Source: Acidobacteriota bacterium (GTDB lineage Bacteria > Acidobacteriota > Thermoanaerobaculia > UBA5066). Taken from it: a stretch of 35,088 nt of DNA. Position numbers and translations under genes: made by a program. The DNA is taken from the NCBI GenBank assembly GCA_003152095.1, contig PLZI01000131.1, forward strand, positions 1-35,088, read 5' to 3'. Shown here in pieces: positions 24,184 to 31,151 of this stretch. The notes under the pieces are model-generated. The model was not told the DNA's origin. It did not search any database and was given only the letters and a program-made list of their open reading frames with translations. Position 1 is the stretch's first letter, and every line of letters begins with the position of its first letter.

Positions 24184-24972
24184 ATGAGCGCGAACGCCGT
24201 CACGATCGACGCTCCGAACGACCTTCTCGTGGAGGACCGGGGCGGCATCCGGATCCTCGCTCTGGGCCGCGGCAAGGCAAACGCCATGTCGACGGAGTTC
24301 GCGGCGACCCTGCACGAGGCCGCGCTTGCCGCGCAGGAGGATCCCGCCGTCCGCGGCGTCGTCCTGACATCCCGATCGCCGAAGATCTTCTGCGGCGGGT
24401 TCGATCTGAGACGGCTGGCGCACGCCGGCCCGGAGGATTTCGCGCGCTTCGTCCGCGTCTTCGACGCTCTCTTTTTCGACCTCTTCCTCCTCGGCAAGCC
24501 GCTCGTCGCGGCGCTGACGGGCCACGCGGTCGCCGGAGGGGCCCTTCTGGCGGGCACCGCGGACTTCCGTTTCGCGGCGGAAGGGCCCGGCACGATCGGC
24601 CTTCCGGAAGTGCGGCTCGGCATCCACGTGCCGCGGCACTGCGTGGAGGCGATGCGTACCACGGTCGGAGAGCAGGCCCTCACGCGCTGGGCCCTCCTCG
24701 GCGAGACGATGCCGTTCGAGGAGGCGCATGCGCTCGGCGCGATCGACCGGATCGTCCCCGCGGATCGCCTCCTCGAGGAGGCGGTGACCTTCGCGCAGCA
24801 GCTCGGCGGCGCCCCGAGCGAGGTGTACGCCGCGATCAAGCGCGACCTGAGGGGCTCGGCATACGACAGGGCCATGGACGTGCAGCCCGACGCGCGCAAG
24901 GCGTTCGTGGACTCCTGGTTCTCCGAGATCGGACAGCGCGGCCTTGCCTCGGCCCTTCGTCACGGTTCCTGA
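24184..24972 (+). CDS. Crotonase-fold protein (enoyl-CoA hydratase/isomerase family)
   Basis: A 262-residue crotonase. The oxyanion-hole segments SPKIFCGGFDLRRL (65-78) and GHAVAGGALLAGTADFR (113-129) are clear. Of the two hydratase glutamates, the first (GGGCELA in rat crotonase) is replaced by Leu121, while the second is kept as Glu142 in GLPEVRLGI. A single glutamate at that place is typical of delta3,delta2-enoyl-CoA isomerases, so isomerase or another CoA-thioester reaction is more likely than hydration. It starts 13 bases after pdxT on the same strand, but a metabolic link to B6 is not obvious. Substrate cannot be told from sequence. Confidence 0.88.
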   Translation: MSANAVTIDAPNDLLVEDRGGIRILALGRGKANAMSTEFAATLHEAALAAQEDPAVRGVVLTSRSPKIFCGGFDLRRLAHAGPEDFARFVRVFDALFFDLFLLGKPLVAALTGHAVAGGALLAGTADFRFAAEGPGTIGLPEVRLGIHVPRHCVEAMRTTVGEQALTRWALLGETMPFEEAHALGAIDRIVPADRLLEEAVTFAQQLGGAPSEVYAAIKRDLRGSAYDRAMDVQPDARKAFVDSWFSEIGQRGLASALRHGS

Positions 24973-25009
24973 CGCCTGCCCGTTTTTCGTGACCGACACG
25001 AGGGATGTG

Positions 25010-26122
25010 ATGGACACCGCGCGCGTGGATGCGGTTCTCGACGCACTCGGGCTCGAGAGGCGACCGCCCGACGGGCGCTTCTTCGAGAACGTCTTCCTGC
25101 GCTTCCAACGGCGCATCGCGTGCGAGACGCTCACGCGCCCCGCGGGGGATCCGCAGGCCTTTGACGCGGAGCGATTCTTCGCGGAATGGGTCGAGGAAGA
25201 GAGGGGTCTCGTCGGCGCGGAACGCACGCGTGCGTTCGAATGGCTCGCAGTGAACTGCGGGTTCGACGTGACGGCCGTGCGTGGCGAGTGTCGGCGGCCC
25301 TGGGAGGAGGACGCACCCGGGCGCGACGAGCCGCGCCTCGGCCCGGAAGACGGTGGTTTTTCTTCGAAGGTGAAGGGAGCCAGAGCGCACTGGGTGGTCA
25401 TCGCGACCATCGAAGGTCGGCGCATCCTCGCCGACGCGGGGTTTCCTCTTCCGGTCCTTCTGTCGCTCGACCCTCCGGCGCGAGAGATCCCGACAGGGTT
25501 CGGCAGCCTATCCTCCGCGGTCGCGCATGACGGCTCCTTGCTTGTGACGTGTGACGCCCGCGGCGAGGTCGCCGAGCTGCTCCGCCTCTTCCCGCCGCCG
25601 TCGGAACCCTCTCTTCCACTCGAAGAACTTTCCAGAAGGATTCCCGTTGCTCAGACGGGACCCGAAACGCCACGGCGCCCGTCCGCCCTCCGCGTCCTCG
25701 ATGACCGCGTCCTCTTCTGGAGCGCGGGGCGCATGACGATCCTCGACGCGTGGAGTCGGCTCGAATACGCGCTTCCCGCCTCCGAGCGCTCCGCGATTGA
25801 AAAGCTCTTCGCGCTGGAGCTCGGGGACGTGGTCCTTCCCCGCGAAGCGGACGAGGACCCGGCGAAATCCGCCACGCTCTCCGTGTTTCACATGAGCCCG
25901 GTCGCCGCGGACAAAGCCCGCACACGGATTGCACGCGAGACGCCCCCCTATTCACTCGTCGCGAGCCGCGAGCTCCGGGTCGAGGAGTCGGGTGCGGGCT
26001 CGCGCCTTGGGATCCACGCGACGCTCGCGGGGCCCGTGCCGCCTGCCGGCCCCGGTGAGGCGGTCCGCAAGACGCTCGTCTTCCACCTCGTGTCGGAACT
26101 TTTCGAGCTCTCTCGCGGCTAG
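25010..26122 (+). CDS. Arylamine N-acetyltransferase-like protein without catalytic Cys
   Basis: From ATG 25010 (CGAGGGA upstream) the protein has 370 residues. RFFENVFLRFQ (23-33) resembles the PFENL motif of arylamine N-acetyltransferases. WVEEERGLVGAERTRAFEWLAVNCGFDVTAV (60-90) resembles the RRGGxCxExN...LGFxVxxh region, and AHWVVIATIEGRRILADAGF (126-145) resembles the H...DxGF region. His127 and Asp142 keep the 15-residue spacing of the His-Asp pair, but the RGGxC cysteine is replaced (RGLVGAE), so acetyl transfer by the usual mechanism is unlikely. The C-terminal 200 residues are long and divergent. The family call is moderate. Its stop overlaps that of the convergent gene within CTAG. 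Confidence 0.6.
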   Translation: MDTARVDAVLDALGLERRPPDGRFFENVFLRFQRRIACETLTRPAGDPQAFDAERFFAEWVEEERGLVGAERTRAFEWLAVNCGFDVTAVRGECRRPWEEDAPGRDEPRLGPEDGGFSSKVKGARAHWVVIATIEGRRILADAGFPLPVLLSLDPPAREIPTGFGSLSSAVAHDGSLLVTCDARGEVAELLRLFPPPSEPSLPLEELSRRIPVAQTGPETPRRPSALRVLDDRVLFWSAGRMTILDAWSRLEYALPASERSAIEKLFALELGDVVLPREADEDPAKSATLSVFHMSPVAADKARTRIARETPPYSLVASRELRVEESGAGSRLGIHATLAGPVPPAGPGEAVRKTLVFHLVSELFELSRG

Positions 26123-26880
26123 AAAGTCAGCTCATCCCCGTCGGAGAGGAGGGACACGCGGGCGTCGCCGAGCGCCGCGACCTCGGCGCGCAACCGCCCG
26201 AGACTGGGCGGCTTCATGTGGTGGAGGTAGATGGGCACTTCGGGAGGAAACTTCTCGATCTCCAAGCGCAGCGTCGCGGGCGTCAGGTGCTTCGACGCGT
26301 CCGCGAGGTGCTGCAGATCGTCCGGAAACGAGCACTCCACGAACAGCGCCTTCACGTCGTTCCGCGCCCGCGCCTCTCTCCAGAGCTCCTCCGTCGGGCC
26401 CGTGTCGCCCGAGAAGACGATGCTCGTGGCGCCCTCGGAGAGGATGTAGCCGTACGTCGGCACGACGTGTGACACCGGAATGGCGGTGCCGACGACGCCC
26501 GCGACCTCGAATGGCTCGCGCGTCGGAATCGCCCGAAACGTGACGCTAGGCATGAGGTCGTTCGGCAGGCGCGAGAAATCCGGCCAGAGGGCGTCGTTGA
26601 AGAGATGTTTCCTCAGGGCGGCGAGGATCTCCCCGGGGGCCACGATCTCGAGAGGCATGGCGTGCCGGCCGAAGACGTTCTCGACCAGAAAAGGAAGAGA
26701 CGCCACGTGGTCCATGTGCGCGTGTGTCACGAGGACGGCGCGCACGAGCGCCTGCTCGTCCAGCGGCAGCGCGTCGGTGAGGGCACCGGCGTCCACGCAG
26801 AGCGAGTCGTTTACCAGGAACGACGTCTGCCGATGGAACGGTGAGGAGCCGCCATGGGCTCCGAGGACGCGAACGCGCAC
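26119..26880 (-). CDS. Metallo-beta-lactamase-fold hydrolase, class II cAMP phosphodiesterase-like
   Basis: A 253-residue MBL-fold protein starting MRVRVLGAHGGSSPFHRQTSFLV. The zinc motif HAHMDH is at residues 53-58, further ligands are HVVPTYG (second His), FSGDTG (Asp) and YLHHMKPP (C-terminal His). This layout, a short strand-glycine start and VSHxxxxYGYxL, is close to class II 3',5'-cyclic nucleotide phosphodiesterases, so cyclic-nucleotide hydrolysis is plausible; other phosphodiesters are possible. No signal peptide was seen. The GTG start (26878-26880) lacks a ribosome site, and CATAAT lies just upstream (26889-26894), hinting at a leaderless message. Confidence 0.78.
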   Translation of the reverse strand: MRVRVLGAHGGSSPFHRQTSFLVNDSLCVDAGALTDALPLDEQALVRAVLVTHAHMDHVASLPFLVENVFGRHAMPLEIVAPGEILAALRKHLFNDALWPDFSRLPNDLMPSVTFRAIPTREPFEVAGVVGTAIPVSHVVPTYGYILSEGATSIVFSGDTGPTEELWREARARNDVKALFVECSFPDDLQHLADASKHLTPATLRLEIEKFPPEVPIYLHHMKPPSLGRLRAEVAALGDARVSLLSDGDELTF

Positions 26881-26954: not shown

Positions 26955-29819
26955 CTAGAAAGTCGTCCCGACGTAGAACGTCGACTGCCAGTTCGACAGC
27001 GACGAGTGGAAGTCCCACTGCTTCGAGAAATCCACGTTCCATGGGAGGCCGAGGAAATAAATGCTGAAACCGGCTCCGAACGACGAATGCCCGTCCTTCA
27101 GCGTTCCGTTCTGCCAGAACTGAAAGGACTGATCGTTGAGCCACGCCCCGCCGATATCCAAGAAGATCCGCCCGCGGATTCCCCCGAACTGCAGGAACGG
27201 CATGGCGAGCACGTCCACGAGCGGGAAGCGGAACTCCGAGTTCACGTAAAAGACGTTGTTCCCGATGATGCTCCGGTAGTCGTAGCCGCGCAGCGTGTCG
27301 AGGCCGCCGAAGTAGAAGACCGTGGGCGCCGCACCCCGCGAGAGGCCGCCGAAGGCGCGGAACGCGAAGAGCACGCGCCGGGACAGCGGAAGATAAAGGC
27401 GCCCTTCGGTGAAGGCGTCGAACGTGAGCGTCGTCTCGCCCGTCTGGAACGAAGGCGTGTACTGCAGGCTGACATCGAGCATCTTGCCGCCCTGCGGCCC
27501 GAAGCTGGCGTAACGCGTCGTGTCGTACGAGAACCCGACCCCTGCGGTCGGAACGTTGTCCGAACGGGGGTTGAACACCATTTGCTGCGTTCCATCGAGG
27601 TTCGATTCGATATACGGGACGTCGAGAGATCGGCTCACGAAGCCGACGTTTCCCTCTAGGCGCGTGTAACGCGAGATCGGGTAATAGCCGTTCACCGAGA
27701 AGCCGGTGTCCCGCGCGATGCGCTGGGTGCGGTCGTAATTGCCCGTCCCGTAGTCGTAGGCGTAGAAGTATTCGCGGTCGTCGTAGAGCTGGACTCCCCA
27801 CTGGAAACGCTTGGCGATGTTGAAGTAGCCGACGCGGAAGTTCGAGAACGTGGAGACCGAATCGAACAGGAAGAACGCGCGGTGGTCGCCGAGGTAGTCC
27901 GAGAAGGAAAGGAGGATCTGGGAAAGGAAAGTCTGGTCGGAGTTGATTCCGGCGAGGACCTGAGCGTTGTCGAGGAACAACTTGAACTTCGGCCGCGAGA
28001 GCTTCTCGGGGTCGACGGCCACTTCCACGGCCGGCACGAAGGCAGCCTGACCGGCCAATTTCAAGGGCGCGGGAAGCGGCGCGTGCTCGTCGAGCATTCG
28101 AAAGGGCTTCTTCGCGTCGGCGACGTAGAGCTGGAAACGCAGACCCTGGAAGCCGGAGAAGACCACCTTTTCTTGGCCGTCGGGACCGACGAAGGCGGCC
28201 GGGCCGAGCGCGGCACCGATGACGTCCGTGTATTGAGCGATCTGGCCGGACGCGAGGTCCTGCCCGTAGATGTTGTAGATCCCGCCCCGCGAGGACGCGT
28301 AGTAGAGGCGCTTTCCGTCGGGCGAGAAAGACGGATCCTCGTCGTTGCTGTCTCCCCACGTGACCTGCTCGCTCTTCGCGGGGTCGTCGATCGGGAAGCG
28401 GACGATTTTCGAGAAGCTGCCGACGATCTTCGAGTGATAGATCCACTTGCCGTCGGGCGAGAAGACGGGCGCCGCGTCGTACTCGGGGTCGTTCGTGAGG
28501 TTCTTCACCGCGTGCGTCTTCAGGTCGAGAAGAAAGATGTCGCGGCTGTTGCCCTCGATCCCCGAGAAGACGATGGAGTTACCGTCCGGCGACCACGAGG
28601 GCGCGAGAGGCACATCCGGCGCCACGGCGATGCGTTCGAGAAGCCCGCCCCCGCGCGCCGAGAAGATCAGGAGCTTGCGCCCGCGCTCCTGCCGTCCGAA
28701 GGCGGCGATCCGGTCGCCATCCGGCGCGAAAGAGAGATCGCGCCCGCTTTCGGGGCCCGCCGTGAGGTACTGGCCGACGATGTATTCGTACTTCGTCGTG
28801 TGGCCGGCCGAGAGGTTCTTGTAGAGCTTGCGGTCCTTCACGGAGAGAAGGGCGATGTCGACGTCTCCCTTGTACGTCGTGAGGGTCGCGATGAAATCCC
28901 CGGACGGCGACGGTGCCGCGCCGAATTCGAAGGACTCGCGGCCGTAAGGGCCGACCCGGAAGCGTTCGCCGTACTCGGAGGCCTCGCCCTTGCTCGCGAG
29001 GAGCGGAAGGTACTTGCGGCGCAGGTAGCGGCGGAACTTGAGGTCGAAGTCGTCGGGCTGAATCTCAAAGGCGCGCTTGAGGGCGACGGATACGTCCCGG
29101 CCGAGGAACGAGCGGTACTCGAAGAGGAACTCGCGGACCGCGTCCTTGCCCCACTCGGCCTCCATGAAGTCGTAAACCGCGTGCCCGTACCGGTAGGCCG
29201 GATAGCCCTCGATGTTGACCTTCGTGATGGGCGGGATGAGGTCCTGGTTGACCGCGTCCCTCAAGTACATCCGGTCCTTGTCGTCCTCGTCGTTTCCGTA
29301 GTACGAGGCCATGCCCTCGACGACCCAGGTCGGGACGTTCGACGTGAGCGCGCGGCTCAGGCGCCCGCCGAACAGGATTTCGTACTGGAACACGTGCGTG
29401 AGCTCGTGCTGGATCAGCGACTGGAGCTTCTCGTCCGGCAGGTCGATTGGAAGGACCATCCGGTTTCGTGCCGGCTCGGCGAACGCGCCAACGCCCTCGG
29501 GGATGAAGTTGAGCTCGATGTTGTTCTGCTCGAACTCGGCGTGCGTCGCGTAGTAGATGATCGGGATGCGCTTCGGGATCTGGTAGTTCAACCGGCGCGA
29601 CAGCTCGTCGTAGGCCGACTCGGCCATCGAGACGACTTTCTGAAGCGTCTGGCGCTCTCGCGAGTAATGGAAAACATCGAAGTGCGTGGACTGGTAGATC
29701 TGCCAGTCGAACCGGTCGTAGACGATCTTGTTCTGCCCGGCGGGCCGGGCTTCTCTCGCGAGGGCGACGGCGAGAGCGAGAACGGCGAGGGCGGCGAGAG
29801 ACCTCTTAGTCGAAGACAT
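26955..29819 (-). CDS. Outer-membrane gluzincin protease-TolB propeller-Omp85 barrel fusion
   Basis: A 954-residue secreted protein. It has a signal peptide (MSSTKRSLAALAVLALAVAL and onward, residues 1-27). A peptidase domain follows with HELTH (138-142) and Glu168 in WVVEGMASYYG, the ligands of HExxH...E gluzincins. A TolB-like propeller follows with repeated SPDG/APDG blades (about 300-560: APSPSGDF, SFAPDGD, SWSPDGN, VFSPDGK, SFSPDGK). The C-terminal barrel of about 330 residues contains LRGYDY, matching the Omp85 (V/L)RG(F/Y) lock motif, and the chain ends in Phe. No POTRA domains are seen. ATG 29817-29819 overlaps the preceding lipoprotein gene by 14 bases; the longer open frame upstream is antisense noise. 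Probable role: envelope proteolysis or export, not established. Confidence 0.88.
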   Translation of the reverse strand: MSSTKRSLAALAVLALAVALAREARPAGQNKIVYDRFDWQIYQSTHFDVFHYSRERQTLQKVVSMAESAYDELSRRLNYQIPKRIPIIYYATHAEFEQNNIELNFIPEGVGAFAEPARNRMVLPIDLPDEKLQSLIQHELTHVFQYEILFGGRLSRALTSNVPTWVVEGMASYYGNDEDDKDRMYLRDAVNQDLIPPITKVNIEGYPAYRYGHAVYDFMEAEWGKDAVREFLFEYRSFLGRDVSVALKRAFEIQPDDFDLKFRRYLRRKYLPLLASKGEASEYGERFRVGPYGRESFEFGAAPSPSGDFIATLTTYKGDVDIALLSVKDRKLYKNLSAGHTTKYEYIVGQYLTAGPESGRDLSFAPDGDRIAAFGRQERGRKLLIFSARGGGLLERIAVAPDVPLAPSWSPDGNSIVFSGIEGNSRDIFLLDLKTHAVKNLTNDPEYDAAPVFSPDGKWIYHSKIVGSFSKIVRFPIDDPAKSEQVTWGDSNDEDPSFSPDGKRLYYASSRGGIYNIYGQDLASGQIAQYTDVIGAALGPAAFVGPDGQEKVVFSGFQGLRFQLYVADAKKPFRMLDEHAPLPAPLKLAGQAAFVPAVEVAVDPEKLSRPKFKLFLDNAQVLAGINSDQTFLSQILLSFSDYLGDHRAFFLFDSVSTFSNFRVGYFNIAKRFQWGVQLYDDREYFYAYDYGTGNYDRTQRIARDTGFSVNGYYPISRYTRLEGNVGFVSRSLDVPYIESNLDGTQQMVFNPRSDNVPTAGVGFSYDTTRYASFGPQGGKMLDVSLQYTPSFQTGETTLTFDAFTEGRLYLPLSRRVLFAFRAFGGLSRGAAPTVFYFGGLDTLRGYDYRSIIGNNVFYVNSEFRFPLVDVLAMPFLQFGGIRGRIFLDIGGAWLNDQSFQFWQNGTLKDGHSSFGAGFSIYFLGLPWNVDFSKQWDFHSSLSNWQSTFYVGTTF

Positions 29820-30504
29820 ACCGGTTCGCCTCCCGCTCGCGCACGACGAAGAGCCCGAGGAGCTGGTTCTCGAGAGAAAAGAGGTTCTCGAAGAGACCCA
29901 CGAGCTCGTCCACGCGCGCCTTGCTCTTCTCCTTCGTATCGCGGAAGTTCTCCTGGAAAAGCTTCCCGCCCGTGTGAGCGTCGATCGCCACGACGGTGAC
30001 GTCGAACGTGAAGCCCGTGGACTCGATGCGGACCTGCCGGTAATAAACCCGGTTGTCGATGGGGCTCCGGTATTCCTCGGTGCGATAGCCTGACTTGTTC
30101 TCGACGCGGAAGTCCACGACGCCCGTGAGAAGGATGTCGGCCCCGGTACGGGCGCCCACACCCCGCCAGAAGTCCGTGGCCTCCCCGAGATCCTTCAAGT
30201 TCTGCGTCGGGAGCCGCACGTCCTGCGGCATCGTCACGAGCGTCATCTTCGTGCGCTTGCCAAGTTGCTTGCCGAGGTAGCGCCGGAACTCGGCATCGAG
30301 GTCGAGGTCTTTGTAGCGCGGGGCGTCCTTCTTGTCGGAGAGCTTCGAGGCGACGAGGAAAGGCGCGAGGGAGATGCGCTCGCGCCCCGTCACCGCGAGC
30401 TTCGGGCGCAGCGGAAGCCGGAGCTTGACCTCTTTCGTTCCGCTGGAGCACGCCGAGCCGAGAACGATGGCGACGAGGAGGGCGGGGGCTGCGGCGCGTC
30501 TCAT
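29806..30504 (-). CDS. Predicted lipoprotein of unknown function
   Basis: A 232-residue protein with a lipoprotein signal: MRRAAAPALLVAIVLGSAC, lipidated cysteine at 19. The mature part is mixed alpha/beta. Strands such as ISLAPFLVAS, KMTLVTMPQDV, GADILLTGVVDFRV and TFDVTVVAIDAHTGGKLFQENF recall CsgG or penicillin-binding-protein-activator-like lipoproteins that bind periplasmic partners, but the similarity is weak and no family is claimed. The C-terminus is helical (ARVDELVGLFENLFSLENQLLGLF). It overlaps the TPR lipoprotein gene by 4 bases (ATGA) upstream and the protease-barrel gene by 14 bases downstream, so the three are almost certainly co-translated. Confidence 0.85.
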   Translation of the reverse strand: MRRAAAPALLVAIVLGSACSSGTKEVKLRLPLRPKLAVTGRERISLAPFLVASKLSDKKDAPRYKDLDLDAEFRRYLGKQLGKRTKMTLVTMPQDVRLPTQNLKDLGEATDFWRGVGARTGADILLTGVVDFRVENKSGYRTEEYRSPIDNRVYYRQVRIESTGFTFDVTVVAIDAHTGGKLFQENFRDTKEKSKARVDELVGLFENLFSLENQLLGLFVVREREANRYVFD

Positions 30505-31103
30505 CGGACCGCCGGGGGTGAGCCGCCCGGTCCGGGGGTGGGTGCTGGCGGCGGAGCCGGCGGATTCTGCGCGGGCGGTGGAATAGGAGTGCCGGGCGAC
30601 GCGCCGGAGGGCACGGTGCCGACGGACGGCGGCACGAGCGGAGGCTCACTCGAACCGGGCTTCCCTCCGGTTTCCGGCGCAGGCGCCGGAGAGGGCCGTG
30701 CCCCCGCTGCGGACGGCGCGGGCAGTGAGGAGGCGCGCTGCACGGAGGTGTAGTACTCGGCGAAACGCGCGTAGTTGCGCTTGATCTTCTGGTCCTGCGG
30801 CGCAAGCTCGAGGGCCCTCTTGTACGCGGCCAGGGCGCGCGACGTCTCGCCGACGCTCTCGTAGGCCACGCCGAGATTGTTCTGAACTTCGGCGTTGTCG
30901 GGCTGCAGGGCGGCCGCCTTCTCGTAGCGGAACAGCGCTTCCCGCCAGAAACCCTTGTGAGCCATCTCGGTTCCGTAGGAGTTCTGGCTCTTCCACGCGC
31001 CGGCGTCCTTGGACGATGAGCAGCCTCCCGTTCCCGCGGCGGCGACGGCCACGAGAAGCGCGGCGGCGGATCGGAGTCGGCGCGGCACGGGAAGGTCGGG
31101 CAT
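30501..31103 (-). CDS. TPR-repeat lipoprotein with proline-rich tail
   Basis: A 200-residue predicted lipoprotein: basic N-terminus, hydrophobic AAALLVAVAAAGTGGC with Cys28 as the lipidated residue. Two TPR units follow (about 46-115: AHKGFWREALFRYEKAAALQPDNAEVQNNLGVAYESVG and ETSRALAAYKRALELAP), then a 70-residue Pro/Ser/Gly tail that probably spans or lines the periplasm. First gene of a three-gene envelope operon. No ribosome site is visible at ATG 31101-31103, and TATAAT overlaps that ATG as TATAATG, so a slightly different start (GTG 31112 or downstream) cannot be excluded. A far longer frame upstream is antisense to dprA and topA. Confidence 0.85.
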   Translation of the reverse strand: MPDLPVPRRLRSAAALLVAVAAAGTGGCSSSKDAGAWKSQNSYGTEMAHKGFWREALFRYEKAAALQPDNAEVQNNLGVAYESVGETSRALAAYKRALELAPQDQKIKRNYARFAEYYTSVQRASSLPAPSAAGARPSPAPAPETGGKPGSSEPPLVPPSVGTVPSGASPGTPIPPPAQNPPAPPPAPTPGPGGSPPAVR

Positions 31104-31151
31104 TATAGACACCGGTCTTGAGACTTTTTCTCTGAGCAAGAGGGGTGCCGC

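Follow-up and report, generated by a model that had tools for sequence, protein, structure and literature searches.

A three-gene set of Acidobacteriota encoding a predicted zinc peptidase-propeller-Omp85 barrel fusion and two co-inherited partners

Introduction

Omp85 proteins usually carry one or more POTRA domains, but subfamilies without POTRA have been described (PMC4104836), among them the WD40-Omp85 subfamily, in which a propeller is found N-terminal to the Omp85 barrel; this subfamily has been likened to a BamA-BamB fusion (Heinz and Lithgow 2014, PMC4104836) and was still listed among the poorly characterised ones in a 2024 paper (PMC11116518). Here we describe a three-gene set whose last product has an architecture of this kind, located on the minus strand of a 35,088-nucleotide stretch of DNA (hereafter the window; contig PLZI01000131.1 of assembly GCA_003152095.1, positions 1 to 35,088) from an Acidobacteriota bacterium of the class Thermoanaerobaculia. 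The genes encode a tetratricopeptide-repeat protein (TPR), a small periplasmic protein (LIP) and a 954 amino acid fusion protein (FUS). By analogy with known systems we tentatively propose that the set is an accessory, periplasm-facing outer-membrane processing or quality-control machine that matures or clears proteins which are exported or belong to the outer membrane.

As in the WD40-Omp85 proteins, a TolB-like propeller lies directly before the Omp85 barrel in FUS and POTRA domains are lacking, and by its predicted architecture FUS fits that subfamily, the closest kind known; its gluzincin domain, which is intact, and the two partners inherited with it set it apart and would be additions to the subfamily. 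The words 'peptidase' and 'PD40' are absent from the main text of the 2014 survey and no partner genes are described there (PMC4104836); this survey was the only paper retrieved in literature searches for the same combination. In the literature searched we found no account of the three genes as a system and no paper describing the partners. The first-pass annotation, which was made from the sequence alone, could not match the set to a named system, and in that literature the fusion was not found to belong to a well-described family of known role.

Other systems share single traits with the set. PlpD, a patatin-Omp85 protein, also combines an enzyme domain with an Omp85 barrel, but the enzyme is of lipase type and PlpD has a POTRA (PMC11116518). 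The beta-barrel assembly machinery (BAM) together with BepA contains the same types of part (a barrel, the propeller BamB, the TPR protein BamD and the zinc peptidase BepA; PMC8423444, PMC13067283), but as separate proteins, with a POTRA-bearing BamA and an M48 peptidase, and the host of FUS has a BamA of its own. In the 'Metallo' subfamily of Omp85 a metal-dependent domain precedes the barrel (PMC4104836); there the domain is PF00149, whereas FUS has an HExxH peptidase and a propeller. TolB of the Tol-Pal system has the closest fold to the FUS propeller, and LIP is weakly like the N-domain of TolB; here, however, these parts are split over two genes, the propeller being joined to a peptidase and a barrel, and relatives keep a normal TolB. 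PF00149 is the calcineurin-like phosphoesterase fold, and we know of no TPR or LIP partners of PlpD.

Results

Domain make-up of the fusion protein

The TPR (31103-30501, 200 amino acids), LIP (30504-29806, 232 amino acids) and FUS (29819-26955) genes overlap by 4 nt (ATGA) and 14 nt, respectively. Following a signal peptide, FUS comprises a peptidase domain (residues 28-290; 28950-29738), a TolB-like beta-propeller (residues 300-585; 28065-28922) and an Omp85-type barrel (residues 641-954; 26958-27899) with approximately 16 strands in a low-confidence model.

The peptidase domain of the window protein matches the Pfam model Peptidase_MA_2 under the gathering cut-off (E=0.003, 18 bits compared to 32.4), while 27 of 30 FUS homologues match the same model (best E=3e-9), and the clan MA gluzincin signature, HExxH with a distal Glu, is present. 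The predicted zinc-binding and catalytic motif is HELTH (residues 138-142; 29394-29408), with E168 (in EGMAS; 29316-29318) as the predicted third zinc ligand of gluzincin type. Residues H138, E139, L140, H142 and E168 are invariant in 30 homologues from the class, down to 38% identity, and HExxH with the distal Glu was found in 73 of 73 FUS homologues across the phylum; this count includes four which were flagged by a narrow Glu pattern and in whose printed sequence the Glu is visible. The peptidase had the highest mean pairwise identity (0.60; propeller 0.47, barrel 0.44) and, among members of the genus, the lowest omega of any part of the set (0.055, compared to 0.12 for the adjacent topoisomerase I). 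Because the zinc site is kept throughout and constraint is strongest on the peptidase, the conservation argues that catalysis matters and that the site is no relic.

The propeller is matched by PD40 in the window protein (E=1e-23) and in all 30 homologues. Compared to TolB structures it gave E=1e-22 by sequence and Z=23.7 by fold (rmsd 2.8 over 245 residues); the fold comparison hardly covered the barrel and the peptidase, and the propeller match alone was used. Against the TolB equivalog (NCBIfam TIGR02800) FUS scored 101 bits, below the cut-off of 343.

Pfam Omp85 was matched in 16 of the 30 homologues (best 2e-10), the barrel profile of the family aligned along its entire length with a POTRA-Omp85 protein of solved structure (E=3e-5) and with BamA (8e-5), and the BamA model aligns to FUS over the barrel part only (455-741 of 741). 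The Omp85 loop-6 motif, (V/I/L)RG(F/Y), is present as LRGY (residues 843-846; 27282-27293), in which R844 is invariant and G845 is conserved in at least 90%. No POTRA model was matched in the window FUS or in the 30 homologues, and approximately 55 residues lie between propeller and barrel; nor was there any M48 peptidase or PF00149 match in these proteins. The first-pass annotation had given the gene coordinates and overlaps as above and had read an intact HELTH...E168 site, a TolB-like propeller and an Omp85-type barrel with LRGY and without POTRA, all of which were borne out. Barrel matches with E<1e-60 were all within frames of approximately 930-1580 amino acids, barring three (contig ends or a frame break), and the peptidase, propeller and barrel are thus kept in one frame. 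At one locus (L177:2885-2911, genome G104) the FUS frame is broken within the propeller, which is either a natural split or an assembly error.

Conservation of the set across Acidobacteriota

A total of 247 genomes of the phylum were sampled, with E<=1e-50 taken as a strong peptidase-domain match. Such a match was found in 123 genomes and a LIP match in 89; all 89 of the LIP genomes have a strong peptidase-domain match, while LIP was found in none of the 124 genomes without one (Fisher P=4e-39, a value inflated by the relatedness of the genomes). Judging from the part of them that was inspected, most of the 34 genomes with a strong peptidase-domain match and no LIP match either have a divergent LIP-like gene in the gap or carry only a paralogue, FUS2 (FUS2 loci inspected in families f37, f48 and f70). 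Loss of LIP in families f24, f36 and f56 was rejected, as a divergent LIP-like gene occupies its place. In family f17 (L140, L146) a short lipoprotein beyond the reach of the LIP profile lies between TPR and FUS and is either a very divergent LIP or a replacement.

At 70 of 70 loci where LIP and FUS occur together the genes are on one strand in the order TPR-LIP-FUS, and the distance between the LIP stop codon and the peptidase domain is 58-238 nt, signal peptide included; a TPR homologue is found at the same place in approximately 90 loci. Within the class, the set with a divergent dprA upstream of TPR is seen in nearly all loci which extend far enough, and across the phylum TPR-LIP-FUS recurs with dprA adjacent or not. 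This recurrence of gene order and strand is far beyond chance.

In several families TPR-LIP lies between dprA and rplU-rpmA-obgE and FUS is absent from that place (in L149-L168 the pair is beside dprA, with rplU-rpmA-obgE-nadD next in most of those read). The unlinked FUS is elsewhere in the genome and is an ordinary FUS1 by barrel score. In a tree of 73 proteins the unlinked copies all fall in a single clade, which is nested within linked copies and has a linked sister (f46); this suggests that FUS moved about once. The continued co-occurrence of the genes after unlinking favours a functional tie between TPR-LIP and FUS. The unlinked clade is what might be expected if the three genes were neighbours by descent only and worked apart, but even there LIP is not found without FUS, and the reading frames overlap in the window genus; we regard this explanation as the least probable of those considered. 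The first-pass annotation had suggested a survey of genomes for the trio, and had held that the genes are probably made as a set and that their separation in relatives would count against it. The trio recurs across the phylum, packed and inherited together; the genes are not scattered in most relatives, and they co-occur where FUS has moved.

FUS2 forms a deep, separate clade of peptidase-propeller-barrel proteins, approximately 29% identical and with the zinc site intact. It was found in several families (L065-L069, L138, L148, L169-L171 and others), with no TPR or LIP gene beside it in the loci read, and on account of its deep branch and lack of partners it was rejected as a member of the same system.

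Named metagenome-assembled genomes with close copies belong to Acidobacteriota, one of them labelled Thermoanaerobaculia. A search of genome contigs with the window protein gave close relatives only, no relatives were found in viral contigs, and a plasmid search gave one remote relative, lacking the barrel, in Salinibacter. This protein, on plasmid pSR116 of Salinibacter ruber (L208:4902-6803), is a peptidase-propeller protein, 28% identical to FUS and annotated as basic secretory protein-like, and represents a barrel-less form of the module outside the phylum. In family f6, of the same class as the window, three nearly complete genomes (G021, G024 and G027) have neither a peptidase nor a LIP match, while in another member (L071) TPR, LIP and FUS run off the end of the contig.

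The existence of a barrel-less peptidase-propeller module would suit a surface-displayed protease, in which the barrel moves its own N-terminal peptidase-propeller part to the outside, as was once proposed for PlpD. The enzyme domain of PlpD has, however, been shown to be periplasmic (PMC11116518), and conserved partners of periplasmic type would lack access to a protease on the surface, making this a very doubtful explanation.

The neighbours of the set are housekeeping genes (dprA, topA, rplU, obgE), and hence no dedicated substrate or cargo is apparent. This bears on the alternative of a dedicated export or maturation pore, in which FUS would translocate particular proteins through the outer membrane and clip them en route, with TPR and LIP as guides, in the manner of two-partner secretion but with its own peptidase. 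Translocators such as FhaC/TpsB are found among Omp85 barrels, 10 of 30 FUS homologues give a weak match to the ShlB/FhaC model, and LIP resembles, by a weak fold match, the CsgG/FlgT group, some members of which serve export. Against these points, no substrate gene recurs beside the set, and FUS lacks the POTRA domains which bind the incoming protein in TpsB transporters (PMC9355242); an export pore is thus unlikely, if the most plausible of the alternatives.

The partner proteins

The window TPR protein has a signal peptide with a lipobox (GGC), approximately two TPR units (Pfam TPR_2, E=6.6e-11) and a proline-rich tail; the window LIP also carries a lipobox. By a simple pattern, lipoboxes were found in 39 of 90 LIP and 41 of 91 TPR homologues, and a proline-rich tail of at least 40 residues in 8 of 91 TPR homologues. 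The description of both partners as lipoproteins in the first-pass annotation does not, therefore, hold as a general trait, and the tail, which was suggested to reach across the envelope, appears to be a local feature and is unlikely to be a common working part. At the start of the TPR gene (31088-31107, minus strand) the proposed start codon is overlapped by a perfect TATAAT (TATAATG), which is kept in two congeners; if it is a -10 element, translation of TPR may start at a conserved GTG at 31088. A sigma-70 promoter scan found no promoter.

LIP evolves under approximately the same constraint as topoisomerase I (omega 0.10-0.12). Of 30 LIP homologues, 29 matched FlgT_M (best E=4e-7) and 6 the LpoB model; the window protein scored 15.2 bits against FlgT_M, compared to a cut-off of 31.2. 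Foldseek searches with a low-confidence model gave FlgT at rank 2 (E=6e-3), GNA1162, HpaA, LptE and CsgG, all weak matches, while hhalign aligned LIP with TolB proteins of relatives at the TolB N-domain, again weakly (probability 16-27%). As the FUS propeller is closest to TolB and LIP is weakly like the TolB N-domain, we hypothesise that the two may form a split TolB-like pair.

Such a pair could serve as a TolB/Pal-like tether or peptidoglycan-linked regulator, in which LIP (TolB-D1/LpoB-like) and the propeller (TolB-D2-like) would make up a split TolB on a barrel and the peptidase would trim a lipoprotein or a peptidoglycan-linked partner. The propeller fold, the LpoB and FlgT_M matches and the placement of LIP on the proper domain of TolB are consistent with this role; on the other hand, relatives own a full TolB and the window FUS falls far below the TolB cut-off, and we consider the role quite unlikely, though marginally less so than surface display.

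Host background and neighbouring genes

The host genome has a canonical, POTRA-bearing BamA beside OmpH/Skp-like and LpxD-like genes, as well as a TamA-like protein with several POTRA domains (these names were assigned by sequence reading). The BamA gene (L002/L003, contig 67) is broken by ambiguous assembly bases and is reported as two pieces by automated searches. FUS as the BamA of the cell was rejected, given the canonical BamA and the lack of POTRA in FUS; with a separate BamA and TamA-like protein in the host, FUS is an extra or accessory protein.

A metallo-beta-lactamase-fold hydrolase gene (26119-26880, minus strand; Lactamase_B_2, E=2e-17, Pfam) lies 74 nt past FUS. It is RNase Z or class II phosphodiesterase-like and directly follows FUS in many, not all, relatives in the class; it is possibly a fourth gene of the set in this class, outside the core, and was not included in the first-pass annotation of the set. 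On the opposite strand, an arylamine N-acetyltransferase-like gene (24944-26122) is only approximately 30% identical within the family, where its neighbours reach 60-75%.

Discussion

In the outer-membrane quality-control reading, the Omp85 barrel would anchor FUS in the outer membrane, with the propeller and zinc peptidase in the periplasm directly beneath it, in the position usual for POTRA domains. TPR and LIP would serve as adaptors docked on FUS; a protein that reaches the barrel or stalls there would be held by the propeller and TPR and cut at the HExxH site, and so matured or cleared. FUS would then work like BamA, BamB and BepA in one polypeptide. BamB is a propeller (PMC13067283), and BepA is a zinc peptidase which acts on LptD at BAM, by cutting or helping (PMC8423444). 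The periplasm-facing orientation is suggested by analogy with BepA and with PlpD, in which the enzyme domain stays periplasmic (PMC11116518). While the domain make-up, the constrained zinc site, the co-inheritance of the genes and the separate BamA are observed, the orientation, the physical complex, the peptidase activity, a substrate and the quality-control role are inferred.

A number of points weigh against this proposal. Co-inheritance does not show a complex, and, as BepA belongs to M48, which was not matched in FUS, the comparison with BepA is one of analogy and not of homology. The AlphaFold models, made from five sequences, are poor (mean pLDDT 50 and 51) and leave the domain arrangement of FUS unproven. 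Furthermore, FUS is missing from approximately half of the genomes sampled in the phylum, so the role is dispensable or replaceable.

Somewhat more tentatively still, the set may be a split TolB-like assembly, found across much of Acidobacteriota, in which LIP and the propeller sit on an Omp85 barrel, an active zinc peptidase takes the place of POTRA domains and TPR is a partner. If this were true, no Omp85 protein known to us would have been shown to be a peptidase before FUS.

Among the ten described Omp85 subfamilies WD40 is a kind without a known role, and with the set described here it gains a peptidase that is conserved and intact, as well as two co-inherited partners. The three-gene unit, together with the point mutation E139A, offers a concrete handle on the role of POTRA-less, propeller-bearing Omp85 barrels. 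A further suggestion from the set is that a single polypeptide can combine three tasks at the outer membrane (assembly, scaffolding and proteolysis) which in E. coli are the work of separate proteins.

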